Positions 9,627-47,993 of a stretch of DNA of 64,000 bases are shown here, piece by piece. The notes under the pieces are model-generated. The model did not search any database and was not told the origin of the DNA. It saw only the letters and a program-made list of their open reading frames with translations. The translations under genes and the position numbers were made by a program. Source of the DNA: Bacteroidia bacterium (lineage in GTDB: Bacteria; Bacteroidota; Bacteroidia; Flavobacteriales_D; Cryomorphaceae); assembly GCA_030427905.1 (NCBI GenBank), contig JAUICL010000002.1:434001-498000 (forward strand). The letters run 5' to 3'. The first letter of the stretch is position 1, and every line of letters starts with the position of its first letter.

Positions 9627-9650
9627 GCACATTCTAACAATTTAGTTGTA

Positions 9651-9680
9651 AACCCCAGCAGATTTTCTGCTGGGGTTTTT
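9651..9680 (+). terminator. Rho-independent terminator after the giant surface protein
   Basis: A 12-bp perfect stem (9651-9662 with 9666-9677, core CCCCAGCAGA / TCTGCTGGGG) closes a three-base loop and runs into a T tract (9676-9680). It lies 25 bases past the stop codon and separates the gene from the acetyl-CoA synthetase gene. Confidence 0.9.
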
Positions 9681-9727
9681 ATTTGTTCGGGACGTAATTA
9701 ATATCTTATCGGTTCTAAAATAGAAGC

Positions 9728-11626
9728 ATGAATTTTAAGATAGATAGCTTTCAATCATACAAGGAGAAGTACAAACAAAGCGTTGATGAGCCCGAAGCGT
9801 TTTGGGACGAAGTGGCGGGTGAATATCAATGGTTTAAGCCCTGGTCTAAAACCGTTGAATGGGATTTCGAAAAACCTGAAGTGAAATGGTTTCTGGAAGG
9901 ACAAACCAATATTACGGTAAACTGTCTCGATAGACATTTGGAGACCAGAGGAAATAAAACGGCCCTGATTTGGGAGCCCAATGACCCAAAAGAGCCTTTT
10001 CAAGAGTATACATTTCGGGAATTGCACGACCGAGTTTGTCAAATAGCCAATGTCTTAAAGGCCAAGGGAATTAAGAAAGGTGACCGGGTGGCGCTCTATA
10101 TGCCTATGATTCCCGAGTTGACCATGGCCGTTTTGGCTTGTGCGAGAATTGGTGCCGTTCATTCAGTTGTATTTGCAGGATTTTCAGCACAAGCCTTAGC
10201 TGACAGAGTCAATGATTCTTCTTGCAAAATGGTCATCACAGCCGATGGGCAATACCGTGGTGAGAAAGAGATTCCGCTTAAAGCTGTTGTGAATGAAGCT
10301 TTAAGGACATGTCCTTCGGTGGAAACGGTATTGGTTGCTGAGCGCACCAAGTGGAAAGTGAAGATGGAAGCTGGAAGAGACTTTTACTTACAGGCCGAGA
10401 TGGAAAAAGTACCCCTGTATTGTCCCGCCGAGCGAATGGATAGCGAAGATTTGCTCTTCATTCTCTACACTTCGGGATCTACTGGCAAACCAAAAGGTGT
10501 GGTGCATACATGCGGTGGGTACATGGTGTATGCCGGGTATAGCTTTCTCAATGTGTTTCAACCCGAAGAAAATGACGTGTACTGGTGTACGGCCGATGTA
10601 GGTTGGATAACCGGTCATACGTACATCATTTACGGGCCACTTTTAAATGGAGTGACAACCGTAATGTTTGAAGGAGTCCCGACATTCCCGAGCCCAGGAA
10701 GGTTTTGGCAAGTATGTGATAAGCACAATGTCAACCAGTTTTACACGGCTCCAACTGCAATCCGCGCGCTGATGGCCTGTGGCGAAGATCATGTATTGAG
10801 TTATGGTCTTTACAGCCTGAGAGTATTAGGGTCTGTTGGTGAGCCGATCAATGAAGAAGCTTGGGAGTGGTACCACATTCACGTAGGAAAAGAAAAATGC
10901 CCCATTGTAGATACTTGGTGGCAAACGGAAACGGGTGGAATCATGATATCGGGCCTTGGAAATCACAGCCCGATGAAAGCATCTTATGCTGGATACCCAT
11001 TGCCAGGTATTCAGCCTGTGCTACTTGATGAAAACGGCAATGTGATAGAAGAGAATGGGGTAGAAGGGTACCTTGCAGTCCGCTTCCCATGGCCTGGTAT
11101 GATTCGCACGACTTATGGTGATCATGAACGCTGCAAGAATACGTACTTCTCACATTTCAAAGGGTACTATTTCTCAGGAGATGGGGCTCGTAGAGATGAA
11201 AATGGAATGTATCGCATTATCGGGCGTGTAGACGATGTGATCAATGTATCTGGCCACCGTTTTGGAACGGCTGAAATTGAAAATGCCATCAACGCAAACG
11301 ATCACGTGGTAGCAGAAAGTGCCGTGGTGGGTTATCCGCACCATGTGAAAGGCCAGGGGATATACGCCTATGTGATCTGCAAAGACGGCGTGACCAACGA
11401 AGATCGAACCCGTGCAGAAATTGTAGAAACCGTGGTGGAACAGATTGGTAAAATTGCCAAGCCCGACAAAATCCAGTTCGTACCGGGATTGCCAAAGACT
11501 CGTAGCGGTAAGATTATGCGAAGAATTCTCCGAAAGATTGCGGAAGGAGATACATCAAACTTGGGTGACACATCTACACTTTTGGATCCGAAGGTGGTCG
11601 ATATCATTAAAGACGGAGCGCTTTAA
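9728..11626 (+). CDS. acs: Acetyl-CoA synthetase (AMP-forming)
   Basis: The 632-residue enzyme makes acetyl-CoA from acetate, ATP and CoA through an acetyl-adenylate in the cytoplasm. The AMP-binding P-loop YTSGSTGKPKGVVH lies near residue 244, the A5 region DTWWQTETGG near 397, and the C-terminal RSGKIMRRILRKIA carries the adenylation lysine K595, which is the acetylation target in many homologues. The N-terminal ACAS region (AFWDEVAGEYQWFKPW) is intact and the length is typical. It is a single-gene unit between two terminators. The ATG at 9728 gives the standard N-terminus. Confidence 0.96.
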   Translation: MNFKIDSFQSYKEKYKQSVDEPEAFWDEVAGEYQWFKPWSKTVEWDFEKPEVKWFLEGQTNITVNCLDRHLETRGNKTALIWEPNDPKEPFQEYTFRELHDRVCQIANVLKAKGIKKGDRVALYMPMIPELTMAVLACARIGAVHSVVFAGFSAQALADRVNDSSCKMVITADGQYRGEKEIPLKAVVNEALRTCPSVETVLVAERTKWKVKMEAGRDFYLQAEMEKVPLYCPAERMDSEDLLFILYTSGSTGKPKGVVHTCGGYMVYAGYSFLNVFQPEENDVYWCTADVGWITGHTYIIYGPLLNGVTTVMFEGVPTFPSPGRFWQVCDKHNVNQFYTAPTAIRALMACGEDHVLSYGLYSLRVLGSVGEPINEEAWEWYHIHVGKEKCPIVDTWWQTETGGIMISGLGNHSPMKASYAGYPLPGIQPVLLDENGNVIEENGVEGYLAVRFPWPGMIRTTYGDHERCKNTYFSHFKGYYFSGDGARRDENGMYRIIGRVDDVINVSGHRFGTAEIENAINANDHVVAESAVVGYPHHVKGQGIYAYVICKDGVTNEDRTRAEIVETVVEQIGKIAKPDKIQFVPGLPKTRSGKIMRRILRKIAEGDTSNLGDTSTLLDPKVVDIIKDGAL

Positions 11627-11632
11627 GCCATT

Positions 11633-11663
11633 AAAAAAGGGGACTTAAGAGTCCCCTTTTTTT
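11633..11663. terminator. Bidirectional terminator between acs and the Omp28-like gene
   Basis: Six As, the stem GGGGAC (11639-11644), a TTAAGA loop, GTCCCC (11651-11656) and seven Ts form a symmetric intrinsic terminator that works on both strands. Its T tract includes the first bases of the stop codon of the convergent gene, so the two transcription units share it. Confidence 0.88.
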
Positions 11664-13995
11664 ATTGGATAATGACTTTGCCCGTGTGATAGTACTGATC
11701 ATCCATTACCCTGACCACGTAAATTCCTGGGGCGACATGCCCTAAGTCAATTTCTTCAACTTCCGCTTTGATCAAGCCTGATTTTATCAGCTTTCCATGT
11801 GTATTGAATACATCAAAGCGATTTCCAGAAAGTCCTTCAATTCTAAACAAGCCCGTGCTCGGATTTGGATATAGGTCGATCGACTTTCGGCTGAGTTCCG
11901 CGATTCCATCGGGATTCTCTTCTACAGTATCAAACTTTTTACAACTCATATTTCCAGCATAACTCCCATCTTGATATGCCACAAAGGGAACACCTTCATT
12001 GTTAAACTTGATTATTTGATCAGTCGCTGGATTGGTGAAACCGGCAAGGCCGACGTAGGTCCAATTCGATCCGTTGAAGCGTTTTACAGTAGTTCTTCCG
12101 CCCTGGTTCTCATCTCTATACGCCACGTAAATTTGTCCATCGTCATCAATTTCGATCGAACATGAAGCCGTAGGTCCTTGGCCTAAATCGGCTGTGTGTA
12201 GAGACCAACCTTCTCCATCGAATTCATAGATGTTTAGTTGCTGCGCTTCAGCGCCAATGGTCAAAGCGGCGTAGCATGTACCATCAAATTTAAACGCGAA
12301 GTCGTGATCGAAATAAGTAGGGAAATTTGGTTCAATGTATGTGCCGCCTAACACTTCCCATTCACCGCTGTTTCTAATCGCTACTTCCGAATAAGCACTT
12401 GAAGTTTCATCGGTCCCGTATATCACTGCGGGTTGACCAAAGTCGTCTCGCTTGAGATTATTCCAAATGGCTACATCATCCGTAAAAGGACCGTTTATTA
12501 ACCACTCAGAGCCATCCCATTCTACCGACTTAGACTCGTCATTTGGCGAATCAAAATACACGGCGTGAATATGGTCGTCTTCGCTCACGATGATAGATGT
12601 ATACAGATAGCTCGAAAGCGGCAAGTCTTCGCCCACTTGAACCCAGTCTCCATCAGTCATTTGCCATACTTTACCAGCACCATCAAACGCCACCGGATTG
12701 TCAGAGTTGTCAAGACAAAATGAAGCTTGGAATGGATCCACATTCAAAGGGCTGCCAAACTGGGTCCATTCATCGAGTTCTTCATCATAGCTGAATATCA
12801 AGAGTTGGTCGAGACCATTCATCGTCATTATCATTGGTTCGCCAGCCGAAGTCATTGCTAAATCACTATTGTAAATATCCATATCGGTGAACCCTTCTTC
12901 ACCAACCAGAATCCAATCAGAAGATGGTTCTGTGATAGAAAGTTCATACTCCTGGTCCACGCTCCACGTTCCATCTTCCACCGTTACAACGATTTCAAAT
13001 GTTCCCGTCTCAAGGGCTGTACCCGAAATCAAGGCTTCACCGTCTCCTAAGTCTTCAAAACTCAGTCCCGCTGGAAGAGTTGATTCTGTTGAGATCGTCA
13101 AGTTGTCGTAATCTGGGTCGTGGGCTACAATAGCGTATTCGTATTGCGCATCGAGGTAGGCGGCTTCTACAGGAATTGATTGAACAAAAGGTGGGGCATT
13201 TGAATATCCCGGAAGGTAATTTCCTTCGCCAGCATTCAAAATTTCGCCTGTGGAAACGTCAATCATATAGGCTACAATTTTCACGTACTGCGCAAAATAC
13301 TCTTGTGGCAAGGTGTAGGAGTAGGAGTACGAGTAGGTTTCGCCTTGAAGCAATTCTTCCGGCAAGCTGTTTTCATCTCCCATGTAGCCCCCTGGCAAGT
13401 GTCTCGCCACGTGGTGATAGGCCACCTTGTTGGCAGGCACAGGGTTTGGATCATCTTCGTATCCACCCATGGGGCCGTTGGCTCCATCCGCGTATGAATT
13501 GGCCTGATCGTAATCTTGAGAAACGCCAGTAATTCCATCTTCTACCACGACGGCAGCAAGACGATAGTCGCCACTCAAATCTTCGTTCATTTCTGCATTG
13601 ATCACCATAATGATCTGTCGAGAAATATCATCCCAAATTGTTTGAATGCTAATGTTAGCAGGAGCTGGCACGGCGAGACGCGCGGTCATATCATCGTCTA
13701 GGTTTTCAAACGGATTGAGATCAGTCGTGATCGTTCGATCGATCATGCCTGCCGGTAAATCGCTTTGGCCAGTTGCTTCGGCGTACTCGGCATACTGCAT
13801 AGGATCATCAGAGTGAACCGAAATAAAGACAAATTGTCCTGGATAATTTTCCTCCAAAGTCGAAGCATAAACTTTTCCACTTGGGCATCCACCACACGTT
13901 GTACTTGTCCGTTCTTCGATCAGTACTTTCCTTTCTTGCCCGTGCATATTAGCACTAAGGGCAGCCATAAAAGCGAAGGCAAAAATCTTTTTCAT
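11662..13995 (-). CDS. T9SS-secreted Omp28-like thioredoxin-fold protein with propeller-like region
   Basis: The product has 777 residues. After a signal peptide (MKKIFAFAFMAALSANMHGQ) comes an Omp28-type thioredoxin-fold domain with the redox pair Cys-Gly-Gly-Cys in RTSTTCGGCPSG (about residues 29-40). A cadherin/dystroglycan-like Ig segment (FVQSIPVEAAYLDAQYEY to QEYELSI) follows, then a propeller-like repeat region (about 370-690), and a T9SS type A sorting domain (LYPNPSTGLFRIEGLSGNRF to the end). It is predicted to be exported to the cell surface; thiol chemistry or metal binding at the CGGC is inferred. A short gene of unknown role is read immediately upstream in the same direction and may be cotranscribed. 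Confidence 0.88.
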   Translation of the reverse strand: MKKIFAFAFMAALSANMHGQERKVLIEERTSTTCGGCPSGKVYASTLEENYPGQFVFISVHSDDPMQYAEYAEATGQSDLPAGMIDRTITTDLNPFENLDDDMTARLAVPAPANISIQTIWDDISRQIIMVINAEMNEDLSGDYRLAAVVVEDGITGVSQDYDQANSYADGANGPMGGYEDDPNPVPANKVAYHHVARHLPGGYMGDENSLPEELLQGETYSYSYSYTLPQEYFAQYVKIVAYMIDVSTGEILNAGEGNYLPGYSNAPPFVQSIPVEAAYLDAQYEYAIVAHDPDYDNLTISTESTLPAGLSFEDLGDGEALISGTALETGTFEIVVTVEDGTWSVDQEYELSITEPSSDWILVGEEGFTDMDIYNSDLAMTSAGEPMIMTMNGLDQLLIFSYDEELDEWTQFGSPLNVDPFQASFCLDNSDNPVAFDGAGKVWQMTDGDWVQVGEDLPLSSYLYTSIIVSEDDHIHAVYFDSPNDESKSVEWDGSEWLINGPFTDDVAIWNNLKRDDFGQPAVIYGTDETSSAYSEVAIRNSGEWEVLGGTYIEPNFPTYFDHDFAFKFDGTCYAALTIGAEAQQLNIYEFDGEGWSLHTADLGQGPTASCSIEIDDDGQIYVAYRDENQGGRTTVKRFNGSNWTYVGLAGFTNPATDQIIKFNNEGVPFVAYQDGSYAGNMSCKKFDTVEENPDGIAELSRKSIDLYPNPSTGLFRIEGLSGNRFDVFNTHGKLIKSGLIKAEVEEIDLGHVAPGIYVVRVMDDQYYHTGKVIIQ

Positions 13996-36876: not shown

Positions 36877-38214
36877 ATGAGAGTAATTCTATTCTTAGCT
36901 GCTGCCTTGGTAGCTCATTTTTCTTTTGCCCAAGACAGCATGAATATGGTGTCGCTTTACAACTGGACCACTGACGGAATGCCTTCTAGCTCGGCATGGG
37001 GCAATCTGTATAACGAAGTATGGGGATATGAACAAGATGGGCGTGAGTATGCGATAATAGGTACCACGGGGGGGACGCATTTTATAGACGTTACCGATCC
37101 GGCCAATGCTGTGGAAGTCGATTTTGTGGAAGGGACTCAAACGGGCCCAATTGTCGTACACAGAGACTACCACAATATGGACAATTACCTCTATATGGTT
37201 TGTCAGGAAGGGCAGAGCTCATTGCAAATAGCCGACTTGTCTTATCTCCCAGATTCGGTGCATGTAGTGTACGATGATAATGCCATTTTGCGTGGATCGC
37301 ACAACGTTTTTATCGATACAGCCCAAGCCAAGCTTTATGCCTGTTATGTGTTCAAGCCTGGATTTCAAGGGGTAATTGGCTTGCAGGTTATCGATATTTC
37401 AAATCCTGAAGTGCCCACTATTCTTGATGAATTATACTTACAGGAAGACGTTCACGATATGTATGTCAAGGACAATATTGCCTACCTCCACAGAGGGTAT
37501 AACGGTGGTTTGCAAATTGTAGATTTCAATGAATCTCCTCCGGCAATGCTCGGTTCTATAACCGAATATGAAGGTCAAGGCTATAACCACAGTGGGTACT
37601 TAAGTGAAGACGAAAACATCTATGTACTTGCCGATGAAACACATGGCTCACCATTAAAAATTTTGAATGTATCAGACCCAACCGATATCGAAGTTTTGAC
37701 TACAGTGACATCAGGGATAAACCCGTTGAGCATAGCCCATAATCAAATCATTCACGACGATAAGATCTATTCCGCATTCTATTACGATGGTATATACGTT
37801 TGGAGTATTGAGAACCCCGAGTCGCCAGTTTTGATTGGGTATTATGATACGTCTACGCTCGCGCATCAGCAGAGCTATGAAGGTGCTTGGGGAGTTTATC
37901 CATTTTTATCATCAGGGCATATCCTGGTATCTGATATGCAAACGGGCTTGTGGGTCTTAGAACTTGATGAATCACTAAGTGCAGATTTAGAGCAAAAGAC
38001 CAGGTTTGATATCTTCCCAAATCCCACCTCGTCTTTCATTACATTGATGGGGGAAAATCTTGAAAACCAACCTTATCAGATCTTGGATCAAACCGGTAGG
38101 CTGGTTCGCTCAGGATATGTGGAGCTTTCAGGTAAAATCGAGCTCAGTAGCATGCCAAACGGTATCTACATTTTGCAGATCGGCAACGCTTATAAAAGAG
38201 TAATAAAGAATTAG
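36877..38214 (+). CDS. Choice-of-anchor B family secreted protein (LVIVD repeats, T9SS domain)
   Basis: The ATG at 36877 gives the signal peptide MRVILFLAAALVAHFSFAQ; a TTG eight codons upstream would put charged residues ahead of it. The 445-residue protein has the choice-of-anchor B opening SSAWGNLYNEVWGYEQDGRE, YAIIGTTGGTHFIDVTDPAN and LVIVD-type repeats (YLHRGYNGGLQIVDFNE, LKILNVSDPTDIEVL). A T9SS type A sorting domain follows (FDIFPNPTSSFITLMG to the end). It is a surface or released propeller protein of unknown ligand. Its stop overlaps that of the convergent receiver gene. Confidence 0.88.
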   Translation: MRVILFLAAALVAHFSFAQDSMNMVSLYNWTTDGMPSSSAWGNLYNEVWGYEQDGREYAIIGTTGGTHFIDVTDPANAVEVDFVEGTQTGPIVVHRDYHNMDNYLYMVCQEGQSSLQIADLSYLPDSVHVVYDDNAILRGSHNVFIDTAQAKLYACYVFKPGFQGVIGLQVIDISNPEVPTILDELYLQEDVHDMYVKDNIAYLHRGYNGGLQIVDFNESPPAMLGSITEYEGQGYNHSGYLSEDENIYVLADETHGSPLKILNVSDPTDIEVLTTVTSGINPLSIAHNQIIHDDKIYSAFYYDGIYVWSIENPESPVLIGYYDTSTLAHQQSYEGAWGVYPFLSSGHILVSDMQTGLWVLELDESLSADLEQKTRFDIFPNPTSSFITLMGENLENQPYQILDQTGRLVRSGYVELSGKIELSSMPNGIYILQIGNAYKRVIKN

Positions 38215-38618
38215 GTTAAAGCAGCAAATACGCTCTTTAGCTTGGATGGTAGCATGGGCTTCTCTATAAATGCATCAACACGTTTGTGAGAGTCTATTCG
38301 CAAGATATCGTCTACATGTCGTGATGAGCTCGTAATGATGATTCTTGGCCATTTGGACTGAGGTATTTCGTTCATACTTTGAAGGTCCTCGAGTTGATCC
38401 AATATTTCTAGTCCGTGGCCATCACTTAGCCGAAAAGCGAGCATAATGAAGTCGCATTCAAAATCTGGATCTCGCATAAGGTCAATCAAACCTTTGCCAG
38501 ACCGGATAAACGTGGTTTTGTTTGAAATGTTCATTAAGCCGAGCATACGCTGTGCTATGAAAAGATCAACCTCTTCACTATCTACTATTGCAATTCGGTA
38601 TGATGCGGCTGACCTCAT
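38211..38618 (-). CDS. Stand-alone receiver domain lacking the phosphoacceptor Asp
   Basis: The 135-residue protein is a receiver fold (RIAIVDSEEVDLFIAQRMLG start, RIIITSSSRHVDDI, FIEKPMLPSKL with the switch lysine), but the strand that should carry the phosphoaspartate reads FIMLAFRLSDG, with Ala in the Asp position, and the N-terminal acidic pair is Asp-Ser. It is therefore a degenerate receiver that may work by binding rather than phosphotransfer. Its ATG follows the stop of the receiver-kinase gene with no gap. It closes the Rv1355c/acyltransferase/kinase unit. Confidence 0.85.
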   Translation of the reverse strand: MRSAASYRIAIVDSEEVDLFIAQRMLGLMNISNKTTFIRSGKGLIDLMRDPDFECDFIMLAFRLSDGHGLEILDQLEDLQSMNEIPQSKWPRIIITSSSRHVDDILRIDSHKRVDAFIEKPMLPSKLKSVFAALT

Positions 38619-39725
38619 CTAAAGCGTAAATTGGTCTGGGATAGTGACCGTAAATTCGGTCCAGGTATCTACCTGAGAATCAACTTCTATCTTGCCTTTT
38701 ACTTTCGACACGGCATCGTGAACTAAATAAAGCCCCAAGCCGGTGCTCTTGCTGGTTTGGTTGGTGCTGCTTCTATAGAACATGTCAAAAATTTTGGTGA
38801 GTTCATCTTTGGGGATTCCAACACCATAATCCTTAACCTTTACAATCAATTCCCCATCTGTTTTAGTGGCAGATAATTCGATGATCACATCACCAACATG
38901 ATCGGGCTTTCTACCATACTTTACAGCATTGCTAAGTATATTGCCAATGATGATCTTAAGTCGCATCTTATCCGTTACTGAATCAATCGATTCGTCCACT
39001 TCTGTTACGAACTCGACATGATCATTGTATGACTTCAAACTCTCTGTGAGTTCATTGACCAACGTCTTTACATCAATCGTTTCTACAGTAATTTCAGACT
39101 TGAAATTTCGATAGTACTCTAGGGTCGTTTGAATGTAATTGTCCATTTTGTGGACACTCTTTTCCATCAGATCGAAAAACTGACCTTGCTCTTGCGGTTT
39201 TTCTTCAATCCGAACGAGATGAATAAGCCCAAGTAATGACATAAGCGGGGCTCTCAAATCGTGGGAAACGCTATAGACGAATCTATTTAGTTCTTCATTG
39301 GTTCGTTTAAGTTCTTCATTCTTATCTTGAAGCTCAACTCTTGTCAGGAACATCTGATAGCAAGAATTGATGGTGGACTCAATCAATATTGGGTCCCAAG
39401 GCTTCATAAGATACCGGTCGATATGGCCTTTGTTAACGGCGTCAATCACCGTTTGTGAGCTCGTGTATGCCGTCAAGAGTATCCGCGTAGGATTTGGGAA
39501 ATCTTCTTTAACCTTCTCGAAGAATTCCACTCCAGTCATTTTTGGCATCCGGTGGTCAGCGATGATGATTTCAGGAGAATTTTCTTCGAGAATGTCAAAA
39601 GCATCTTCCGCGTTGTTGGCTAGTAAAATGTCATATTTTCTTCTGAAGCTCGCCTTAAATGCCGATAAATTTTGTTGCTCGTCATCGAGATATAGTATTG
39701 ATATCTTCTTGTCCGGTTCTTTCAT
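38619..39725 (-). CDS. Receiver-histidine kinase (REC-HisKA-HATPase), soluble
   Basis: The 368-residue protein has a receiver (residues 7-120: D14-D15, phospho-D57 in IIADHRMP, lysine in YLMKPWDP), a coiled coil (about 130-150), HisKA with H155 in SVSHDLRAPLMSLL, and HATPase motifs (ILSNAVKYGRKP, KDYGVGIPKDEL, STGLGLYLVHDA). It has no membrane segment. The receiver is strikingly like the divergent stand-alone receiver at 44996-45469. It probably takes phosphate from the 7TMR kinase just upstream (4-base gap). Confidence 0.92.
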   Translation of the reverse strand: MKEPDKKISILYLDDEQQNLSAFKASFRRKYDILLANNAEDAFDILEENSPEIIIADHRMPKMTGVEFFEKVKEDFPNPTRILLTAYTSSQTVIDAVNKGHIDRYLMKPWDPILIESTINSCYQMFLTRVELQDKNEELKRTNEELNRFVYSVSHDLRAPLMSLLGLIHLVRIEEKPQEQGQFFDLMEKSVHKMDNYIQTTLEYYRNFKSEITVETIDVKTLVNELTESLKSYNDHVEFVTEVDESIDSVTDKMRLKIIIGNILSNAVKYGRKPDHVGDVIIELSATKTDGELIVKVKDYGVGIPKDELTKIFDMFYRSSTNQTSKSTGLGLYLVHDAVSKVKGKIEVDSQVDTWTEFTVTIPDQFTL

Positions 39726-39729
39726 TCTG

Positions 39730-41880
39730 TTAATCCTTCAATTCTGACTTAATCGGAAGAACAATAGTGAAGGTGGATCCAACTCCTTCTTCTGACTCGA
39801 CCGTTATTTGTCCTTTATGCGTTTCGATAATGTTAAATGATATGCTCAGCCCCAGACCAGTACCTTCACCAACTTCTTTCGTGGTAAAGAAAGGCTCAAA
39901 TATATGGCTGCGAACTTCTTGCGACATACCGGTACCAGTATCACTAATTCTAAGGTAAACATTACCATTAGATTCTTGAGTGTCAATTGATAGAATCTTT
40001 TCACGAACTGCATCAACACTTTTCAATGCATACAGCGCGTTGGAAATCAAGTTCATAATCACTTGATTGACTTTTCCCCCCATGCACTCTACAGGTGTAA
40101 GTTCGCCGTAATTTTCCTCCACCTTTATGTCACTTGGAATTTCATTCTTCAAAAGTAGGAGAGTAGATTTGATCCCCTCGTTGATATCTATAGGTTTAAT
40201 TGACCCTTCGTCTATCCGACTGAAATTCTTTAATCCTTTCACGATCTCTGCAGTCCTACTGGCTCCCTCTTGGATGCCTTCAAGAAGCTGACTAATCTCT
40301 TCTTTCGTAAAGTCTAAGTCTATTTCTTGCTTGTAAGCTTCAATTTCTTCCTTCTTAATATCAAATTGATCACTCGATGAAATCTCATCATACATGTCTA
40401 CCAATTTGAAGAGATCTTCTACGTCGTACCGAAGTGGAGTGACATTGGCACTAACAAAATTTATAGGGTTATTTATCTCATGGGCTATTCCAGCAGTGAG
40501 CTGTCCGAGTGATGCCATCTTTTCTGCATCTACCAACTGCGATTGAGTGTCCTTAAGTTCATTTAAGGTAATATTCAATTGTGAATTAGATTCTTGAAGG
40601 TCAGTTGTTCGTTCTTTTACTTTTTCTTCCAAAACGATGTTCTGCTCTTTTACAATCCGTTCATTTTCTTTTGAAACTTTCAGCGCTTCTGCTTGCGATT
40701 GAGCTTTTTCACGTTTTAGAATATTGATGCGGTCAGCAAGAGCAAAAGAGAGTAGGATAACTTCTATTGCGCTTCCAAACTGCATCGTGTAATGGGTAAA
40801 TGGCGTGGCTGCTACAATACCCGCATCTTTCAGGGAGAAAATAATAATGCCCACCAGCAACACTAACCAAGCAAAGAGAAAGAATTTTGCTGGTGAGTAG
40901 CCCTTTCTGTATACCTTAACGGCGGTTAGAAAAATAAAAACTGAAACGATGGCAATACTGACTTGAGTACTTGTGTGTACAGCCTTTTCGACTGAAAATA
41001 GAGCGCTGATAATAATAATCACAAAAAGGCCAATAACACCGTAAGACACTTTGTGCAGGGTAGGGGTAAAAACCCGGGTCTTGAGAAAGTCATTCAAGAA
41101 AATTACACTTGAAATGCTTACTAAGCTAGTTAAGATATACACGCTCCTGCTCGCCAGCCACGGGCTATTCGGCCAGAAATACATGAAAGTATATCCTTCT
41201 AATGCAGCCTGGGTAAGGCCTACGAAAAATATGTAAATCACGTAATAGAGATAGCTCGCATCGCGTACCGAAAAATAGATGAATAAATTGTAGAAGGCCA
41301 TTACCAGAATAAGCCCAAAATATGCGCTTAACAATAAGTCGGCTTGCTGGGTTAGTGTACGTGATCCATTAGGAGTCGCTAGATAAATAGGTACTTCAAT
41401 GGGCTCCTTGCTTCTAATCCGAACGAGAAGCTCAGTATCAACAGACGTTTCAACTTTAATGGGAAGTACAAAATACCGATCGGTGACATCTCTTTCATAG
41501 AACGGATGTGCTTCTCCGAGGGTCGACCTACATGTAATTTCACCTTCTTCATCGAAACAATACACTTCGATAGAGTCCAGTACAGGCTGATTAATATGGA
41601 GGTAGAACTCGTTTTTCGGGGTTTGGTTGTGTATTCGGGTTTTGAGCCATATAGCACCATCTACAAATCCAAAATTAGGTCTAGGCGATTCTACTTGGTT
41701 GAATTTTGATCCCATTAAACGGATCGAATCGACCGATAAACCTGCCGATGGATCAATGTAGTACTCAAGCTCCTTTCCTAGAGCTTCACGGTAGAATCCG
41801 TCGTTGATATCAAGGTTTTGAGAAAAAGCAAATTGTACTATTCCAAGAAAGAATATAGTGAGATAATACGCGTGTCTCAT
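39730..41880 (-). CDS. 7TMR-DISM sensor histidine kinase
   Basis: The 716-residue kinase has a signal peptide (1-20), a 7TMR-DISMED2-type ectodomain (about 30-175; GAIWLKTRIHNQTPKNEFYL, LPIKVETSVDTELLVRIRSK), seven membrane helices (about 182-385), a coiled coil (about 390-455), HisKA with H467 in GIAHEINNPINF and a HATPase domain (NLISNALYALK, DTGTGM, GTGLGLSISFNI). DISMED2 domains are thought to bind carbohydrates or other small ligands. Its ATG shares one base with the stop of the acyltransferase-like gene, so it is encoded in one unit with the enzymes. Confidence 0.94.
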   Translation of the reverse strand: MRHAYYLTIFFLGIVQFAFSQNLDINDGFYREALGKELEYYIDPSAGLSVDSIRLMGSKFNQVESPRPNFGFVDGAIWLKTRIHNQTPKNEFYLHINQPVLDSIEVYCFDEEGEITCRSTLGEAHPFYERDVTDRYFVLPIKVETSVDTELLVRIRSKEPIEVPIYLATPNGSRTLTQQADLLLSAYFGLILVMAFYNLFIYFSVRDASYLYYVIYIFFVGLTQAALEGYTFMYFWPNSPWLASRSVYILTSLVSISSVIFLNDFLKTRVFTPTLHKVSYGVIGLFVIIIISALFSVEKAVHTSTQVSIAIVSVFIFLTAVKVYRKGYSPAKFFLFAWLVLLVGIIIFSLKDAGIVAATPFTHYTMQFGSAIEVILLSFALADRINILKREKAQSQAEALKVSKENERIVKEQNIVLEEKVKERTTDLQESNSQLNITLNELKDTQSQLVDAEKMASLGQLTAGIAHEINNPINFVSANVTPLRYDVEDLFKLVDMYDEISSSDQFDIKKEEIEAYKQEIDLDFTKEEISQLLEGIQEGASRTAEIVKGLKNFSRIDEGSIKPIDINEGIKSTLLLLKNEIPSDIKVEENYGELTPVECMGGKVNQVIMNLISNALYALKSVDAVREKILSIDTQESNGNVYLRISDTGTGMSQEVRSHIFEPFFTTKEVGEGTGLGLSISFNIIETHKGQITVESEEGVGSTFTIVLPIKSELKD

Positions 41881-42596
41881 CAGGTATAAGGTTCTATTTC
41901 GCCAACATTTGGTAAATGTAGCTCGTGCTCATAAATGAGCTCTTTACCATCATCGAGAATTTCTTTACGTACAAACATGGGGTTACTTCGCAAGTCTAAA
42001 ATTTTCGTTTTAAAAGTGCCGTACGTCCTTTCTAAAGGTCTGGGATCCATTGATAAAACTCGTGCAATATAGTTCGAATTTGGATAAACAAACTCCCCGT
42101 TTTTACCGACATTTTTCTCAATTGCGAATCCCATTCGCAAGGCAATTTTTAGCGTATACGAAGCTACGATGGTAAAGATACTTGTAATTGGAAGTTGTGA
42201 GCAAAGCGCCATTCCCGCTATCACCAAATTGATTGTTACACCTACATTGGGTGCTTTTGTTCGGCTATTCCAAAGCCCACAAAGCTCAGATGTACCACCA
42301 TTTCTATGATAGGCCTTGACGAGTTCAATGACGTTTGGATCGAAATGGGCTACGGCTTCTTCTACAGGAAGTTTAATCCCACCACCAGCTATTTGCACTC
42401 TTATCCCTCCTAAAAGTTCATTGGTCAAGCTATCATAAGCCATGATGACATAGACATGCGGATTGTACGCCCATGCTACGTTATTGGTGCTGATGTTTCC
42501 AAGATCAAATCCATCCAAGACACGACGGTGCCCTTCGGCATACGCCAAACAGCTTCCTTCATCATCAATAGCTCTGAAGGCCTTTAGTCGAATCAT
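41880..42596 (-). CDS. GNAT-like N-acyltransferase (acyl amino acid or autoinducer synthase-like)
   Basis: The 238-residue protein has no signal peptide. A GNAT-like layout is visible: VYVIMAYDSLTNELLGGIRV (central strand pair), SELCGLWNSRTKA (beta-4 region), GVTINLVIAGMALCSQLPI (helix) and a later LKIALRMGFAIEKN segment, which resembles the FeeM/LuxI-like acyl transferases that join acyl chains to amino compounds. The assignment is by pattern only. It overlaps the ThiF/nitroreductase gene by four bases (ATGA) and the kinase by one base, so its substrate may be the product of that fusion enzyme. Confidence 0.6.
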   Translation of the reverse strand: MIRLKAFRAIDDEGSCLAYAEGHRRVLDGFDLGNISTNNVAWAYNPHVYVIMAYDSLTNELLGGIRVQIAGGGIKLPVEEAVAHFDPNVIELVKAYHRNGGTSELCGLWNSRTKAPNVGVTINLVIAGMALCSQLPITSIFTIVASYTLKIALRMGFAIEKNVGKNGEFVYPNSNYIARVLSMDPRPLERTYGTFKTKILDLRSNPMFVRKEILDDGKELIYEHELHLPNVGEIEPYT

Positions 42597-44863
42597 GCTA
42601 GCGCTTGATAGTGTTGGTCGATGTTTCTCCTGAGCGATTTCTTTACGGGCTTTACTGCTTTAAACAATCTAAATATGAAAATAGGAGTTCCACCATGCTT
42701 ACTCCTAAAGATGTCTGATAGTTTTTCAGATGCTATTTTTAATTCGTTGACCTGGGCTTCATTAAGGTCTGCAGAATTTTCTAGCCTTTCGAGAATTAGG
42801 CTCAACGGCGATTGCGGCTGGAAGCCAATTCCTTTCTTGTTGGCTCCGATCCACACGCGCTCCAAATCTCTACCGGCATTTATGAAGTCCGTTTTACTCT
42901 TCTCTGGCCTTGTGATAATCCCAAGGCAAGAGGCCGACTCGGTGCTTTTCTTTGAGAGCTTTTCGAAGGCTGTCCCGCCACCCCATTCCTGGAGTTTGTC
43001 AATAACTTGTCGGTTGGTAGCGAGCTTGAAACCGGCCAATTCACCTTCGGTCAGATCACAGGTTTCTATATCGATACCATCCTTTGAAACTTCGACATCT
43101 TCTTGGTTCCAGCGCATTTCTTCTGTGAAATTTTGGTGGCCCATGGGGTGCATTATTCTGAAGCGCTCAGCAAAAGCAATAAGTTTAGCTAGCTCGTCCT
43201 TCTCTTCGCCTTCCAGAATGACAAGCGATGATCCGTTGGCAGAAGCCAATGATTGAAGATGATCTAAGTTCTCACTTTCTATTGGCTCGCCTTTTTCAAT
43301 ATTTCGATTGGTATGCCTTTGGAAAATGGCCTCACCAAGCTCCAAGTCAACTACACTTGGCTCATTTCCTTTAGCGAAGCTCAAGTTGGCTATACATCCA
43401 TTTATTTGTTCCTGGCAGAAATGTACATCAACGCTATACCCTAAGGCTGAAGCCTTAAGCACAGCATTTTCGAGAGAAGCTCCCAGTGCAATCATGGAAG
43501 CGATATCGTTGTAATCAAGGAACGAACTAGTCAAGGTTTTATCGTGCCGCAATTGAAGAGCGCCATTGTGATAAACCCATTGCCATGGCTGCAAATTTCC
43601 ACCGCTCGGGGCGTGACAGGCCGCTTCTACAACTAAATCGGCATCTGGCTTAGTCAGTGCGCTTGCTATCTCTGGGAGAGAAACGGATACATCGGCCAAT
43701 TGGGGTTCTTGAAACATTTGCTTCGAACTGGCTCGCTCACCTTTTTTATTGCCAATTATCTCTTCCACATCCATGTAGTACCTACCAGATTCGTGAAACT
43801 GGTTGAGAAAAATCCGGCGTACAACGTCGGCAGTAATTCCACCACCTAAAGTAACTGCAGAAGCGAGCTGGGGCCAGGTGGTGATTGTTTCGCCAATTTC
43901 CAACATACTCGCTTTAGCGCGCGTCGAAATGGTCTCAAGACCCACAATGTCGAGCATGTATGGGATTTTTTCTTCGTTGGTTTCGAGGGTCTTCAAAAGC
44001 TCAGTATTCAAATCGCCAACTAAACCATGGAGTAGGGGGCGCTCTGGCTCAAGGTCGAAACGCTCCACATCTACCATCCCGCGATCGCTTGCTTCCATCA
44101 CAACTGGAATGCCCATGGACTTCGCTTTTTCTCTAGCCAAAATTTTAATTTCTAGACCGTCGCATTCATCTATTAATAAGTCAAGATCGCCACCTTCGGT
44201 AAAAAACGAGTCCATATTCTCTTCGGTGATACCGTCTGTGAAGCACTTGAGACTTAAGAATGGATCTATTTCCATGATTTCTCTCGCCACTGAAATCACC
44301 TTAGAAACACCTAGGTTTTTGATCCCTGTTCTGATTCGATTCAAATTGGTCAATTCGAGCGTATCAAAATCGGCCAGTCTGAGCTCTCCAAATCCGCGCT
44401 CCATGGCCATGGTAACCGCTACCGATTGCCCTACAGAAAGGCCGATCAAGCCAACCTTTTTCTTAACTAAAGTCTGCTGTTCTTCAGGACTTATTTTGTA
44501 GTGATTTCGGTTTGATCTTACCTGAATGAACTCATTTTCAGGCAGGATATGTACGAGCCTGTTAGACCAGGAATAGAAGACCCAAAGGCCATACAAATCT
44601 GGGTCTGTACCTTTTAAATGGTCTAGAGCAGCTTGTTTTAAGCGTTCTCCGCTCAATCGTTGACGAGGGTGTAGGCATTTCACCAACTCCTCGAGTTGCA
44701 CCATGATGTCATTGGTAACGATGAGAAATTCATTTCTTGCAATCGCGGCTAGTCTCTGTTGGTCATTCTCATCATTTGGATTTAAAATCTCGGGAGTCCA
44801 GGATTCTAAATCTCTCTTTGAACTTTTTTCAGACAGTAAGTCAAAAGTGTCTCTTGTATTCAT
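42593..44863 (-). CDS. ThiF (E1-like)-nitroreductase fusion, Rv1355c family
   Basis: The 756-residue protein joins two catalytic folds. Residues about 120-380 form an E1/ThiF adenylating domain: Rossmann turn KKVGLIGLSVGQSVAV, then LADFDTLELTNLNRIRTG (nucleotide and Mg contacts) and LLIDECDGLEIK. Residues about 395-740 form a nitroreductase/FMN fold (AACHAPSGGNLQPWQWVYHN, FQRHTNRNIEKGEP, FQPQSPLSLILERL). The 110-residue N-terminus is of unknown fold. Mycobacterial Rv1355c (MoeY) has this architecture. The metabolic product is unknown. It leads the operon of acyltransferase, kinase, receiver-kinase and degenerate receiver. Confidence 0.88.
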   Translation of the reverse strand: MNTRDTFDLLSEKSSKRDLESWTPEILNPNDENDQQRLAAIARNEFLIVTNDIMVQLEELVKCLHPRQRLSGERLKQAALDHLKGTDPDLYGLWVFYSWSNRLVHILPENEFIQVRSNRNHYKISPEEQQTLVKKKVGLIGLSVGQSVAVTMAMERGFGELRLADFDTLELTNLNRIRTGIKNLGVSKVISVAREIMEIDPFLSLKCFTDGITEENMDSFFTEGGDLDLLIDECDGLEIKILAREKAKSMGIPVVMEASDRGMVDVERFDLEPERPLLHGLVGDLNTELLKTLETNEEKIPYMLDIVGLETISTRAKASMLEIGETITTWPQLASAVTLGGGITADVVRRIFLNQFHESGRYYMDVEEIIGNKKGERASSKQMFQEPQLADVSVSLPEIASALTKPDADLVVEAACHAPSGGNLQPWQWVYHNGALQLRHDKTLTSSFLDYNDIASMIALGASLENAVLKASALGYSVDVHFCQEQINGCIANLSFAKGNEPSVVDLELGEAIFQRHTNRNIEKGEPIESENLDHLQSLASANGSSLVILEGEEKDELAKLIAFAERFRIMHPMGHQNFTEEMRWNQEDVEVSKDGIDIETCDLTEGELAGFKLATNRQVIDKLQEWGGGTAFEKLSKKSTESASCLGIITRPEKSKTDFINAGRDLERVWIGANKKGIGFQPQSPLSLILERLENSADLNEAQVNELKIASEKLSDIFRSKHGGTPIFIFRLFKAVKPVKKSLRRNIDQHYQALA

Positions 44864-44995
44864 CCTTGCTGGTTGGCTGTTGGTTTATTGAGTAAAAATG
44901 GTACATTCGAAACTATTAAAGAATCGAGTTTTATCAATTTATTTTCGACGAACAGCGATATTTAGAGTACGATAGTTGAAAATCAAGAAGAAGTC

Positions 44996-45469
44996 ATGTC
45001 AGAAAAAGATGAGAGCGTAAAATCAGGCGTGTTATACGTGGATGATGAAGAGAATAATCTGATAGCTTTTAAAGCAGCTTTTAGGAGAGATTTTAATGTG
45101 TATACCGCTTTGAGCCCTCGGGAAGCGAAGATGTTCTTGGACAAGGATGAGCTTAAAGTCATCATTTCTGACCAAAGAATGCCGGATAAGACGGGGGTCG
45201 AGTTTTTATCGGAAGTGAAGACTTCCCACCCTGAGCCAATCCGAATTTTGCTCACCGGATACTCGGACATGGAAGCTGTGATTGACTCAATAAACGAGGG
45301 CGAAGTCTACCGTTACCTAACAAAGCCTTGGGATCCGAAAGTGCTTAAGTCTATCATCAATCAGGCCATTGAGATATTTGATTTGAGAAAGGAGAACAAA
45401 CAACTCCTAGCCGATCTGAAGCGAGCCAATGGTCAACTCGAGTTTTACTTAAGACAAAAATTGTTGTAG
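44996..45469 (+). CDS. Stand-alone response-regulator receiver domain
   Basis: The 157-residue protein is a complete receiver (residues 11-130: D16-D17, phospho-D59 in VIISDQRMP, lysine in YLTKPWDP) followed by a short coiled coil (about 130-155). It has no DNA-binding or enzymatic output. Its receiver closely matches that of the receiver-kinase at 38619-39725, with the same RR motif in FRR and PWDP. Divergently transcribed from the Rv1355c-family gene across a 131-base gap, it may be a phosphate shuttle for that system. Confidence 0.9.
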   Translation: MSEKDESVKSGVLYVDDEENNLIAFKAAFRRDFNVYTALSPREAKMFLDKDELKVIISDQRMPDKTGVEFLSEVKTSHPEPIRILLTGYSDMEAVIDSINEGEVYRYLTKPWDPKVLKSIINQAIEIFDLRKENKQLLADLKRANGQLEFYLRQKLL

Positions 45470-45482
45470 TAGTCTCCGACGC

Positions 45483-47993
45483 TTATTGCTTCAAGAGTTT
45501 GCTCGTGTATTCATTGCCGTTGTTGGCATATCCGGTTACTACATACACTCCAGAAGGTAATTGGGATACTTCAACCTGGATCTTAAACAGTTCTGAATCT
45601 TCTGTTTGAGCATCAATCAAAGTCACTCCTAAAGAGTTTACAATTTCAATTTTGCGGATCCCACAATTTTCGCAGAGAATATTAACGATGTTTTCCGTAG
45701 GGTTGGGGTAGAGAAGAAGTCTGTGTTCATCAAGCGTTGAAGGCCAGTTTAAACTCGGATCGTAGGTCACCCAAGGTCGTACTTGTTTTATAGCGAGTTG
45801 GTTATCTTGATCTATCTTGTACTCAATATCGACCGCAAAGCTGTGATTTCTTTCTGCCTTGTACAATTTTGAGAACTCATGATGAATGCGAGATAGGTAT
45901 GTTCTCATCTCAGCTAGGTGAATGGGACTCATAAGAAGCGAGTCAGGCGGAACTAAATTTGATCGCTGTATGACGTAGTACTCGTCTTCATCTCCTACAA
46001 ATTCATCCAGTAGAATCTCTTCGGGTTTTGTGTTGGCAGGTGGGTTAGTAATCAGATCTTCGCCCTTTTGAGAATTCAGATAATAGGTGTGTTCAGTACC
46101 GTACACCGGATCAGCGCTCACGCCTACGCCGTTCACTTTTTCGTTTGAGTAATTGGGATGGCAAAGTACGGCCATGCTAGAGCTGAAGTGATTTACTTTG
46201 TAAAAGTCCCTTTCTTCGAAAGCCCTTAAGTTCCATATGCTGGCATACACTTGCTTTATTGATTTTTCGATATGCCCTTCCCACGGATGTTGGGTTTTTG
46301 ATTCGTAGAGACCTGCACCATTAAAGCCGGGAAGGTCTTCATTGTTCGTACTCGACCTGCACCTAATCGATGTGCCATCGGGAAACATTCCTTGTAGTTC
46401 AGCCAATTCATCGTACATCCAACTTGGTAGTGGCGCGGCTTTGATGCTGGCTCGGAGACTAGCTAGCAACTCATCCCTTACATCTCTATTCTCTTGAAAA
46501 TCTGTTCGGTTAAGTAACTCTTCCACCACATTGAAAAAGCCGTTGTACTTCATGAATTCCTGATAGAAAAAGAAGGGTACTCCAAATCCGTCAGGAATGG
46601 TGCCGTCAGGAAATCCGAAGGTATGCATCGTAGCAAGGTTAGCGCATTTTGCACCGTAGCCGTTCTGCATATCAAAGGTGATTTCTGAGAGGGGAAGTAT
46701 GGATTGGTACGATAGATTTAAAGGCGGTTCTTGGTTGTGCTCTGGCCGGATATGATCAAACCACCTATTCACATCTTCGATTGATGCTTCTTTCAGAACG
46801 AATCCATCCTGATCTGCCCGGAAGTATACGTAATGTCCAAGTAATGCACTCACTGCTTCATTTGCGAGAGCATCTCTAATAAAGGCGTTTGGAATACCGT
46901 CTTGAATGGCTCGCAAATTGACGTGTGAAAGTGGTGTTTGAATCTCTGATGTAATTATTCCTGAAACGCGGGGAAGGAGATTGGGAGCTGACTCGTAGAT
47001 CACGATGTCGGTAACACTAGGAATTTCATCTGGACTCATGTACCTGAGCTTTCCATAGCCTTCAGTCAAGTTCAAGCCGAGGTAATCAATCTGAGAATAG
47101 ACGTCAGACTCAAGGATGACAGACACTCTCGAATTTTCGTAAAGCTCCTGTTCCCAATAATATCCGTCTTCGTTATTGAGTGTAACAAAGTAAGCCAAGT
47201 TGTTTCGAAGTACGGGCATATTGGCAGCCAGGATCTCATTAGTTCTTTGCACATCGGTAAATGGGCGTTGACCATTATTACTGTAATTAAAAGCAAATGT
47301 GCCCAAAGTGCCGTTACTCGAAGGAATGGTAGGGTGAAAGACCACATTCCCGCGTCGCACATCTTCAGCCAGGTAATCTACACCTAGCCAATCGGCAAAT
47401 TCGGAGTGAAGCCAATGTGTTTCACTATTCATGAAATATACCGAAGGCGTATCCGAATCAAAATCCAATATGATGAACTTCAGAAATTCCTTCCCATTTA
47501 AAAACTCAAAAAATTGAACCACAGGGAGCTGAGTTGAAAGCGCATTGAAGGTGTTCATCGACTCAATAGCCACAGCCGCATCTATGAGTTCCATGGGCTC
47601 TGTATTGCTAAACGGACTTTGCGCAGGGCGATTTTCTATCTCTTCAATATCGTTGTACCCATCGCCATCAATATCCCCTGGATTATTGATAGGAAACTCT
47701 AAAACCTGGTAATTTTCAATAGGGTAGGCACCAAGCGATTCTTTTAGGATAGTGGTACCTTCTGCACCGTAGGTCAATGACAAGTTTAAGGTAAAAGGAT
47801 CTTGATCGTTGTGACGTCCTTTCAGAATATAGTACTTGTCCGAACTCGATTCTATCTCGATGTTTACTTGCCCAAAGGCATCAACATGATGCGATAGAAT
47901 TTCAACTTCCTGGCAAAAAACTGAAGTAGCACTGATGGTACATAGGATGATGAACCAAAAAACTACTGGAGAATTGTAAAAGGAGCTTTTCAT
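45483..47993 (-). CDS. T9SS-exported dikinase-like protein (phosphohistidine plus ATP-grasp domains)
   Basis: The 836-residue protein has a signal peptide (1-27), a Ca-type DIDGDGYNDIEE loop (107-118), a PEP-utiliser phosphohistidine domain (about 335-400; catalytic His357 in TPLSHVNL), then a PPDK-type ATP-grasp domain (about 445-740; GYGAKCANL with K449, RCRSSTNNEDLPGFNGAGLY, IKQVRPW), and a T9SS type A sorting domain (760-836, LLYPNPTENIVNI). His domain before ATP-grasp is the order of glucan water dikinase, not of PEP synthase. All key residues seem kept. An ATP-dependent phosphotransferase outside the cell would lack ATP, so the real substrate or site of action is open. Confidence 0.88.
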   Translation of the reverse strand: MKSSFYNSPVVFWFIILCTISATSVFCQEVEILSHHVDAFGQVNIEIESSSDKYYILKGRHNDQDPFTLNLSLTYGAEGTTILKESLGAYPIENYQVLEFPINNPGDIDGDGYNDIEEIENRPAQSPFSNTEPMELIDAAVAIESMNTFNALSTQLPVVQFFEFLNGKEFLKFIILDFDSDTPSVYFMNSETHWLHSEFADWLGVDYLAEDVRRGNVVFHPTIPSSNGTLGTFAFNYSNNGQRPFTDVQRTNEILAANMPVLRNNLAYFVTLNNEDGYYWEQELYENSRVSVILESDVYSQIDYLGLNLTEGYGKLRYMSPDEIPSVTDIVIYESAPNLLPRVSGIITSEIQTPLSHVNLRAIQDGIPNAFIRDALANEAVSALLGHYVYFRADQDGFVLKEASIEDVNRWFDHIRPEHNQEPPLNLSYQSILPLSEITFDMQNGYGAKCANLATMHTFGFPDGTIPDGFGVPFFFYQEFMKYNGFFNVVEELLNRTDFQENRDVRDELLASLRASIKAAPLPSWMYDELAELQGMFPDGTSIRCRSSTNNEDLPGFNGAGLYESKTQHPWEGHIEKSIKQVYASIWNLRAFEERDFYKVNHFSSSMAVLCHPNYSNEKVNGVGVSADPVYGTEHTYYLNSQKGEDLITNPPANTKPEEILLDEFVGDEDEYYVIQRSNLVPPDSLLMSPIHLAEMRTYLSRIHHEFSKLYKAERNHSFAVDIEYKIDQDNQLAIKQVRPWVTYDPSLNWPSTLDEHRLLLYPNPTENIVNILCENCGIRKIEIVNSLGVTLIDAQTEDSELFKIQVEVSQLPSGVYVVTGYANNGNEYTSKLLKQ

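Follow-up and report, generated by a model that had tools for sequence, protein, structure and literature searches.

The window, i.e. the whole stretch of 64,000 nucleotides analysed from a Bacteroidia bacterium of the Cryomorphaceae, contains a minus-strand run of five genes, called as open reading frames from position 44863 down to 38211. At its head lies a ThiF-nitroreductase fusion of the TrzS/OxzB type (42593..44863; 756 aa). It is followed by a FeeM/AHL-synthase-like N-acyltransferase, predicted to be an N-acyl amino acid synthase (41880..42596; 238 aa), a 7TMR-DISM sensor histidine kinase (39730..41880; 716 aa), a receiver fused to a histidine kinase, without DNA-binding domain and laid out like PhcR (38619..39725; 368 aa), and a single receiver (38211..38618; 135 aa). 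Successive members overlap or are spaced by -4, -1, +4 and 0 bases. A second single receiver, also lacking a DNA-binding domain and PhcQ-like in layout, is encoded divergently on the plus strand (44996..45469; 157 aa); the 132 bases in between (44864..44995) putatively hold the promoters of both units. A TTCGAA element in this intergenic region is also present in two of the three closest relatives; this is weak evidence, which merely suggests that the divergent promoter contains a regulatory motif. The Pfam-type domains of the unit are ThiF, Nitroreductase, 7TMR-DISMED2, 7TMR-DISM_7TM, HisKA, HATPase_c and Response_reg. The operon encodes no DNA-binding output, no exporter was found within the unit, and according to gene calls and domain search a LuxR-type cytoplasmic receptor is absent from it.

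The fusion protein is an enzyme of the Rv1355c/TrzS family: it scores 782 bits against NF005901 ('Rv1355c family'; curated cut-off 476) and covers positions 4-717 of the 722 in the profile, and no member above the cut-off occurs in the control genomes. It consists of a ThiF-like cyclase (approximately aa 95-360) and an FMN oxidase/nitroreductase-fold desaturase (approximately aa 390-756). Alignment with Rhodococcus and Mycolicibacterium members reveals GLSVG, ECD and Arg-x-Thr motifs common to the fusion and the actinobacterial Rv1355c-family proteins; the Asp of ECD is position 235 of the window protein. The equivalence of its residues to D217 and R540 of TrzS is inferred, not shown. According to work from 2025, this family cyclises and desaturates N-acyl amino acids to oxazolones (PMC12856293). 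TrzS matches from plasmids belong to the actinobacterial family (31-35% identity), are not accompanied by kinases, and offer no labelled TrzA for comparison. The acyltransferase matches no Pfam or NCBIfam model, not even at an E-value of 1, and its identity hence relies on structure. The top PDB matches of its model (pLDDT 93.9) are FeeM (2g0b) and then the CoA-dependent AHL synthases MesI and BjaI; these lead a set of matches with TM-scores, by target, of 0.58-0.76. A LuxI/FeeM-type fold is thereby shown on a predicted structure. Because no sequence-family model matches, we say only that the protein is predicted to work like a synthase of the FeeM/TrzA type, not that it is a filed member of a described sequence family.

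Domain search resolves the sensor kinase into a DISMED2 ectodomain, a seven-helix membrane domain and a HisKA/HATPase core (model pLDDT 94.7). In a structure search, the ectodomain comes closest, among solved structures, to the sensor domain of RetS (3jyb), with carbohydrate-binding folds next. The catalytic residues of the kinases and of two active receivers are intact: H467 of the sensor kinase is kept in 105/105 relatives, D57 and H155 of the receiver-kinase in 101/101 and 100/101, and D59 of the divergent receiver in 141/141. The gene of the latter is present at 150 of 160 loci, and its helical C-terminus, NeQLEF-LRQkLLS, is strongly conserved. The receiver at 38211..38618 yields only a sub-threshold Response_reg match (27.8 bits) and has lost the phospho-Asp position (D61->A) as well as D14 (->S), but its counterpart retains the phospho-Asp in 76 of 79 relatives. 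The original prediction, made from the sequence alone, is confirmed as to gene content, single strand, tight spacing and divergent receiver. Its assignment of the fusion to the Rv1355c kind held, and its 'GNAT-like' label for the acyltransferase held on a structural basis only. The 'degenerate receiver' held for the window, as a peculiarity of its lineage and not of the system. The claim that the divergent receiver mirrors the receiver-kinase held in part, since the former resembles the latter truncated just before the H-box.

The linkage of synthase and receptor was examined in an even class sample of 395 Bacteroidia genomes and in a wider set of 160 loci with the acyltransferase. About a fifth of the sampled Bacteroidia (75/395 genomes) possess a bona fide acyltransferase gene, and a 7TMR-DISM kinase adjoins it at 74 of these 75 loci, across dozens of families; the remaining one is cut by a contig end. 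In the wider set the arrangement recurs at 157/160 loci, always on the same strand, the three exceptions lying near contig ends. This recurrence is far beyond chance. Likewise, 75 sensor matches in the 395 genomes score above 340 bits, of which 74 adjoin an acyltransferase; the exception is without a kinase core. The operon kinase represents a separate clade among 7TMR-DISM kinases. Adjacency to such enzymes as a property of all 7TMR-DISM kinases is ruled out, as the 20 best other proteins of this type have unrelated neighbours. In some other lineages, a LuxR-type regulator lies within the locus.

While acyltransferase and kinase are constant, the tailoring gene varies between ThiF-nitroreductase, ThiF, methyltransferases and an FAD oxidase. 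The acyltransferase tree implies at least 27 changes of tailoring enzyme, and its well-supported branches force at least five for the methyltransferase label; one locus (L162) is reduced to acyltransferase and kinase alone. Where methyltransferases stand in place of ThiF, the inferred products are methyl esters of N-acyl amino acids. After tailoring swaps, sensor divergence came out too high in a comparison of rows thinned at 72% identity; on all rows, a chemistry swap by itself has a modest effect on it, weaker as a signal than the block pattern.

This pattern consists in the replacement, as one unit, of the block formed by nitroreductase, acyltransferase and sensor in related genomes, and it is clearest in four metagenome-assembled genomes. 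In L059, L060, L072 and L085, receivers and receiver-kinase are 94-98% identical, the kinase core 82-90% and ThiF 74-89%, as against 22-35% for the nitroreductase, 52-71% for the acyltransferase, 27-34% for the ectodomain and 41-45% for the membrane domain. Across block-replaced genomes, the retained receivers and kinase core show 80-98% identity, and the DNA alignment ends inside both boundary genes of the replaced block. An isolate case, Pedobacter L066 versus L055/L071/L083, is real but less extreme. As a control, the remaining 7TMR-DISM receptors in the same genomes have sensors 68-98% identical, the operon receptor 37-41%; isolate genomes agree with this control. It rules out that the sensor is variable merely because sensors evolve fast. 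Sensor and acyltransferase co-vary with a partial r of 0.33 (bootstrap 0.15-0.49; permutation maximum 0.18), which exceeds the value of the sensor versus its own kinase core (0.10), although partial correlations leave some shared ancestry in. In these relatives, synthase and receptor-sensor are hypervariable together, with kinase core and regulator conserved. This is not shown for the species of the window: the lineages in which blocks are seen to be replaced do not include its close kin (sensors 44-52% identical), and variation of the locus has been observed between species, not yet within one.

TrzAS (Rv1356c-Rv1355c), OxzAB and TyzACB likewise combine an N-acyltransferase of the FeeM/AHL-synthase type with a ThiF cyclase and an FMN desaturase, the latter two fused in TrzS and OxzB as in the window protein. 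However, the window acyltransferase matches no sequence model, gene order and neighbours differ, and the literature searched describes neither a sensor kinase nor a two-component relay alongside these systems. In clusters for stieleriacine and N-acyl dehydrotyrosine, genes for ThiF, nitroreductase and methyltransferase likewise accompany an N-acyl amino acid synthase, but these clusters are planctomycete and proteobacterial, and the paper on them mentions no histidine kinase (PMC12479983). The phcBSRQ operon of Ralstonia (3-OH PAME/MAME) resembles the window operon in uniting synthase, sensor kinase, receiver-kinase and receiver (PMC8578825), in the order of the last three, in the lack of DNA-binding domains in both receiver proteins and, in some Bacteroidota loci, in a methyltransferase as tailoring enzyme. 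In contrast, the window operon lacks the methyltransferase synthase PhcB, in place of which acyltransferase and ThiF-nitroreductase are predicted to form the signal; its receptor is a 7TMR-DISM protein, a divergent receiver is added, and no PhcA-like LysR regulator was seen at the locus itself. A plasmid search with the receiver-kinase returned no phcR-like homologues. With ComQXPA and agr, polymorphic loci that form communication groups, the system shares a contiguous hypervariable synthase and receptor-sensor block between conserved parts (PMC4408185); there the signals are modified peptides, here a small molecule of the acyl-amino-acid type is predicted. The synthase fold belongs to the LuxI/FeeM group, but unlike LuxI/LuxR, the unit has a membrane kinase and no LuxR as receptor, and there is no evidence of a homoserine lactone.

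Gene content, conservation, folds, intact residues, enzyme swapping and synthase-sensor co-replacement are shown; the most likely reading (probability about 0.72) is a quorum-sensing cassette for N-acyl-amino-acid/oxazolone signals of lineage-specific type, with product, ligand and phenotype inferred. The acyltransferase would use acyl-CoA (or acyl-ACP) to acylate an amino acid, an aromatic one being the most likely; the ThiF domain would activate the carboxylate with ATP and close the oxazolone, and the FMN domain would desaturate it. Cyclisation and desaturation would remove the negative charge and leave a small hydrophobic molecule, whose exact structure is inferred. Diffusing or held in the membrane, it may be recognised by the adjacent kinase through the ectodomain and/or the seven-helix domain. 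Phosphate would pass to the receiver-kinase and the single receivers, a direction that is inferred, and the single receivers may act by protein contacts on an output coded elsewhere, as PhcR and PhcQ do. The original prediction that the enzymes make what the kinase senses is supported, because the tailoring enzyme is swapped, the block is co-replaced and the sensor divergence is specific to the operon receptor; ligand binding and signalling remain inferred. That prediction would have been refuted had acyltransferase and kinase rarely been neighbours, but the neighbourhood check found them adjacent at all but one of the class-sample loci. Its statement that no such system is described held partly: the enzymatic half is already described (TrzAS/OxzAB/TyzACB; PMC12856293, PMC10404671). 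With the chemistry largely known, the coupling of oxazolone-type enzymes to a sensor appears to be the sole new part. It is undescribed in the open-access literature searched (7TMR-DISM/ThiF, oxzB, oxazolone signalling); this scope excludes subscription journals and with them the original OxzAB paper.

Against the signalling reading, the oxazolones published so far were found mainly with the cells, and a signalling role has been proven for none of them (PMC12856293). They are also broken down by acid (PMC12856293). Alternatively, the product could be a bioactive, i.e. antimicrobial or protective, acyl-oxazolone; the kinase would then be a pathway-specific regulator that senses it, so that the pathway induces itself or protects the producer, as lantibiotic systems do, with communication secondary. 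Antimicrobial activity is reported for N-acyl tyrosine derivatives (PMC12856293), co-replacement of synthase and sensor fits equally well, and although no exporter or immunity gene was seen, small hydrophobic products may need none. We nevertheless consider this unlikely, since a tailoring enzyme that is swapped or missing, down to the pair at L162, is easier to reconcile with a signal than with a conserved toxin, and no resistance gene recurs among the loci inspected.

Less likely still is a kinase that senses something else, such as glycans, membrane state or stress, and merely controls the adjacent production of oxazolone lipids. The resemblance of the ectodomain to RetS and carbohydrate-binding folds speaks for it, as does the suspicion that oxazolones are stress lipids (PMC12856293). 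But it predicts neither the joint replacement of sensor and synthase with kinase core and relay retained, nor a sensor that co-varies more with the synthase than with its own kinase core. Accidental co-location or slow decay of gene order, with sensors merely evolving fast, is all but excluded: kinase cores are generally slower-evolving than sensor domains, but the class-wide linkage rules out an accidental neighbourhood, and 7TMR-DISM receptors outside the operon are conserved within the same genomes and have unrelated neighbours.

For the group that characterised acyl oxazolones, what these molecules do is a major question still to be resolved (PMC12856293), and the open-access literature searched names no receptor for them. 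The cluster probably constitutes a complete, previously undescribed cell-to-cell signalling system that is widespread in Bacteroidota, although product and ligand are inferred. Because the pairing of enzyme and receptor is conserved in about a fifth of the sampled Bacteroidia, a signalling role of oxazolones can be tested directly in genera that are culturable and non-pathogenic, e.g. Pedobacter and Chitinophaga; laboratory strains with the cassette include Pedobacter steynii DSM 19110 (L058) and Chitinophaga rupis DSM 21039 (L100). If the reading is true, many Bacteroidota would have a quorum-sensing language with dialects, acyl-amino-acid (oxazolone-type) molecules would gain a function and a receptor, and 7TMR-DISM receptors a ligand class; the loci would also supply naturally matched pairs of synthase and receptor. 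A bolder reading, towards which we lean by a narrow margin, is a polymorphic small-molecule quorum-sensing family on the scale of the phylum. In it, a constant pair of acyltransferase and seven-helix 7TMR-DISM receptor kinase would combine with carboxylate-capping enzymes that can be exchanged for one another – an oxazolone cyclase that may or may not come with a desaturase, methyltransferases, an oxidase – to give lineage-specific N-acyl-amino-acid signals. To our knowledge, no earlier non-peptide signal system has block polymorphism like that of comQXP/agr, so this family would be the first, and in its kinases oxazolones would gain their first receptors.

The window locus lies in a 3.8-Mb genome (G000); Cryomorpha ignava (L044, contig G004:C67) is a relative from its family, which marks the source as a Flavobacteriales-type bacterium. 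Five cassette genes run on the minus strand from 44863 down to 38211 with gene-to-gene steps of -4, -1, +4 and 0 bases, and the divergent receiver lies on the opposite strand, 132 bases from the first gene of this unit. The original prediction had described, from sequence alone, a ThiF-nitroreductase fusion, a GNAT-like protein, a 7TMR-DISM kinase, a receiver-kinase and two receivers; gene coordinates agree with its placement of all six, and its domain assignments held in domain and family model searches. The GNAT-like protein has no Pfam or NCBIfam match, and its identity as an acyltransferase rests on structure. Beyond the cassette, 45483-47993 (minus strand) encodes an 836-aa protein whose gene ends 13 bases away from that of the divergent receiver. 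Its N-terminal segment is signal-like, and it carries a type IX secretion tail and a PPDK_N domain (pyruvate phosphate dikinase ATP-binding); the dikinase domain appears to be exported.

The ThiF-nitroreductase protein scores 782 bits against NCBIfam NF005901 (Rv1355c family; cut-off 476) and shares motifs with actinobacterial members: the glycine-rich and ECD motifs of ThiF and those of the flavin domain. Rv1355c was shown in December 2025 to be TrzS, which converts N-acyl tryptophan to N-acyl tryptazolone by cyclisation (ATP) and desaturation (O2, FMN), its N-acyltransferase partner being TrzA (Rv1356c) (PMC12856293). Tyrosine and phenylalanine analogues are products of OxzAB and TyzACB (PMC10404671); for TyzA, FeeM and BjaI are reported as structural neighbours, and the window acyltransferase has these neighbours too. 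Because of the family match, the common motifs and these neighbours, an N-acyl amino acid oxazolone is very probably the product of the window pair, though its amino acid and chain length are not readable from sequence; support for the enzyme identity is strong. On a Streptomyces plasmid (L209, 5158-8072), a ThiF domain with 46% identity to that of the window protein across this region carries an N-terminal extension that by eye resembles a GNAT/FeeM-like domain; its gene adjoins a beta-ketoacyl-ACP synthase III, with no kinase listed nearby. On a Rhodococcus plasmid (L208, 2696-6944), a GGDEF protein gene lies two genes upstream of the Rv1355c-family gene; since cyclic-di-GMP genes also accompany M. 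tuberculosis trzAS (PMC12856293), actinobacterial versions might be wired to c-di-GMP.

The acyltransferase model matched 77 of 395 evenly drawn genomes of the class, with 75 loci representing a real match; outside the class it is rare (one further genome in the phylum draw). A 7TMR-DISM kinase lies within 4 kb in 74 of these 75 loci, the last being cut by a contig end, and a divergent-type receiver is present in all of them. Across all loci the kinase is found in 157 of 160, every time on the same strand. Conversely, when sensor-domain matches in these 395 genomes are limited to those above 340 bits, 74 of the 75 are cassette kinases, and the lone exception has a different output domain; the genes around the 20 best other 7TMR-DISM proteins are housekeeping genes or unrelated. 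One cassette (L062, 9228-10678) contains a tandem pair of acyltransferase genes (100 and 176 bits), conceivably reflecting mixed signals or a recent duplication.

A tailoring gene sits between or beside acyltransferase and kinase in the class sample: the ThiF-nitroreductase fusion in 42/75 loci, ThiF alone in 20/75, a SAM methyltransferase in 7/75, an ICMT-type methyltransferase and an O-methyltransferase in 1/75 each, cut fusions in 2/75 and nothing recognisable in 2/75 (one cut by a contig end). FAD-linked oxidases are an additional type in the wider locus set. On a tree of 105 acyltransferases, at least 27 changes of the tailoring label are required; for the methyltransferase label, well-supported branches impose a minimum of 5. 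We infer a common logic, in which cyclisation and methylation would each mask an N-acyl amino acid's carboxylate; the methylation site is likewise inferred. At L213 (G344, 8134-11797), a 7TMR-DISM kinase near the operon type (393 bits for the kinase core) adjoins a protein similar to the FAD-linked oxidases of loci L091 and L118, and the acyltransferase is absent; this could be a sister system using another synthase.

Structure prediction (pLDDT 94.7) places a RetS-like DISMED2 domain atop a seven-helix domain in the sensor. Relatives show essentially no variation in the catalytic residues of the kinase, the receiver-kinase or the divergent receiver; the phospho-Asp of the small receiver is present in 76 of 79 sequences and lost in the window. 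The operon order kinase, receiver-kinase, receiver resembles Ralstonia phcS-phcR-phcQ, in which PhcR combines a receiver with a kinase, PhcQ is a receiver, and neither has a DNA-binding domain; the Ralstonia genes adjoin that of the signal methyltransferase PhcB (PMC8578825). In some lineages a receiver-PAS-HisKA_3 kinase takes the receiver-kinase role. Five loci with a relay kinase of the longer type have a LuxR-type regulator nearby, which suggests a transcriptional output.

The clearest co-replaced block is seen in a set of four related genomes (L059, L060, L072, L085), in which the DNA flanking the locus is colinear and about 70-83% identical. Identity is high in divergent receiver (95-98%), receiver-kinase (94-98%), kinase core (82-90%) and ThiF (74-89%), but low in nitroreductase (22-35%), acyltransferase (52-71%), ectodomain (27-34%) and membrane domain (41-45%). 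Between L060 and L085 the 83% DNA similarity breaks off within trzS, past the ThiF part, and returns within the kinase gene, where the last membrane helix ends. Comparable blocks are present in L133/L177 (of one genus, and with the tailoring gene exchanged too), L089/L091, L054/L088 and, among isolates, in Pedobacter sp. MC2016-24 (L066) versus other Pedobacter. As a control for rapid divergence of such receptors in general, the four genomes' remaining 7TMR-DISM receptors were compared as reciprocal-best pairs (two evident mis-pairings involving L265 left out): their sensor identity is 68-98%, versus 37-41% in the operon receptor. Among the Pedobacter isolates, identities of sensor/output are 0.33-0.36/0.70-0.75 for the L066 type and 0.39-0.76/0.45-0.83 for control receptors. 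Over 82 loci, membrane domain and acyltransferase co-vary (partial rank r 0.33 with kinase-core and relay divergence removed; bootstrap 0.15-0.49, permutation maximum 0.18), whereas the membrane domain hardly co-varies with its own kinase core (0.10). The pattern of co-varying, co-replaced synthase and sensor matches that of comQXP, whose polymorphic signal-synthesis and receptor genes set communication groups (PMC4408185).

Two side observations concern these loci. L054 and L085 both derive from the MAG LF-bin-428 (G659), as two cassette copies of different types; they may be two dialects within one cell or bin contamination. In the four genomes, the intergenic DNA between divergent receiver and trzS has two blocks that are candidate regulatory sites: one of about 37 invariant bases, which includes the inverted repeat GTTTTA-N9-TAAAAC, and another with TTACGTAA.

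The best-supported reading remains make-and-sense, a quorum-sensing-like cassette whose enzymes make a small molecule that the adjacent kinase senses (probability about 0.72): evolution strongly suggests product-sensor coupling, and cell-to-cell signalling is inferred. The acyltransferase, with cyclase and desaturase, would yield a hydrophobic signal; this would be perceived by the 7TMR-DISM kinase, which would pass it through receiver-kinase and receivers to an output. The main rival, in which the product is an antimicrobial whose production is autoinduced, appears unlikely to us. Enzymes, receptor family and relay layout are each already known; the searchable literature yielded no description of the three combined, of how widespread the combination is or of its block polymorphism. 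Under the make-and-sense reading, with signalling still an inference, the cassette would be a form of quorum sensing whose ligand-receptor pair is unusual.
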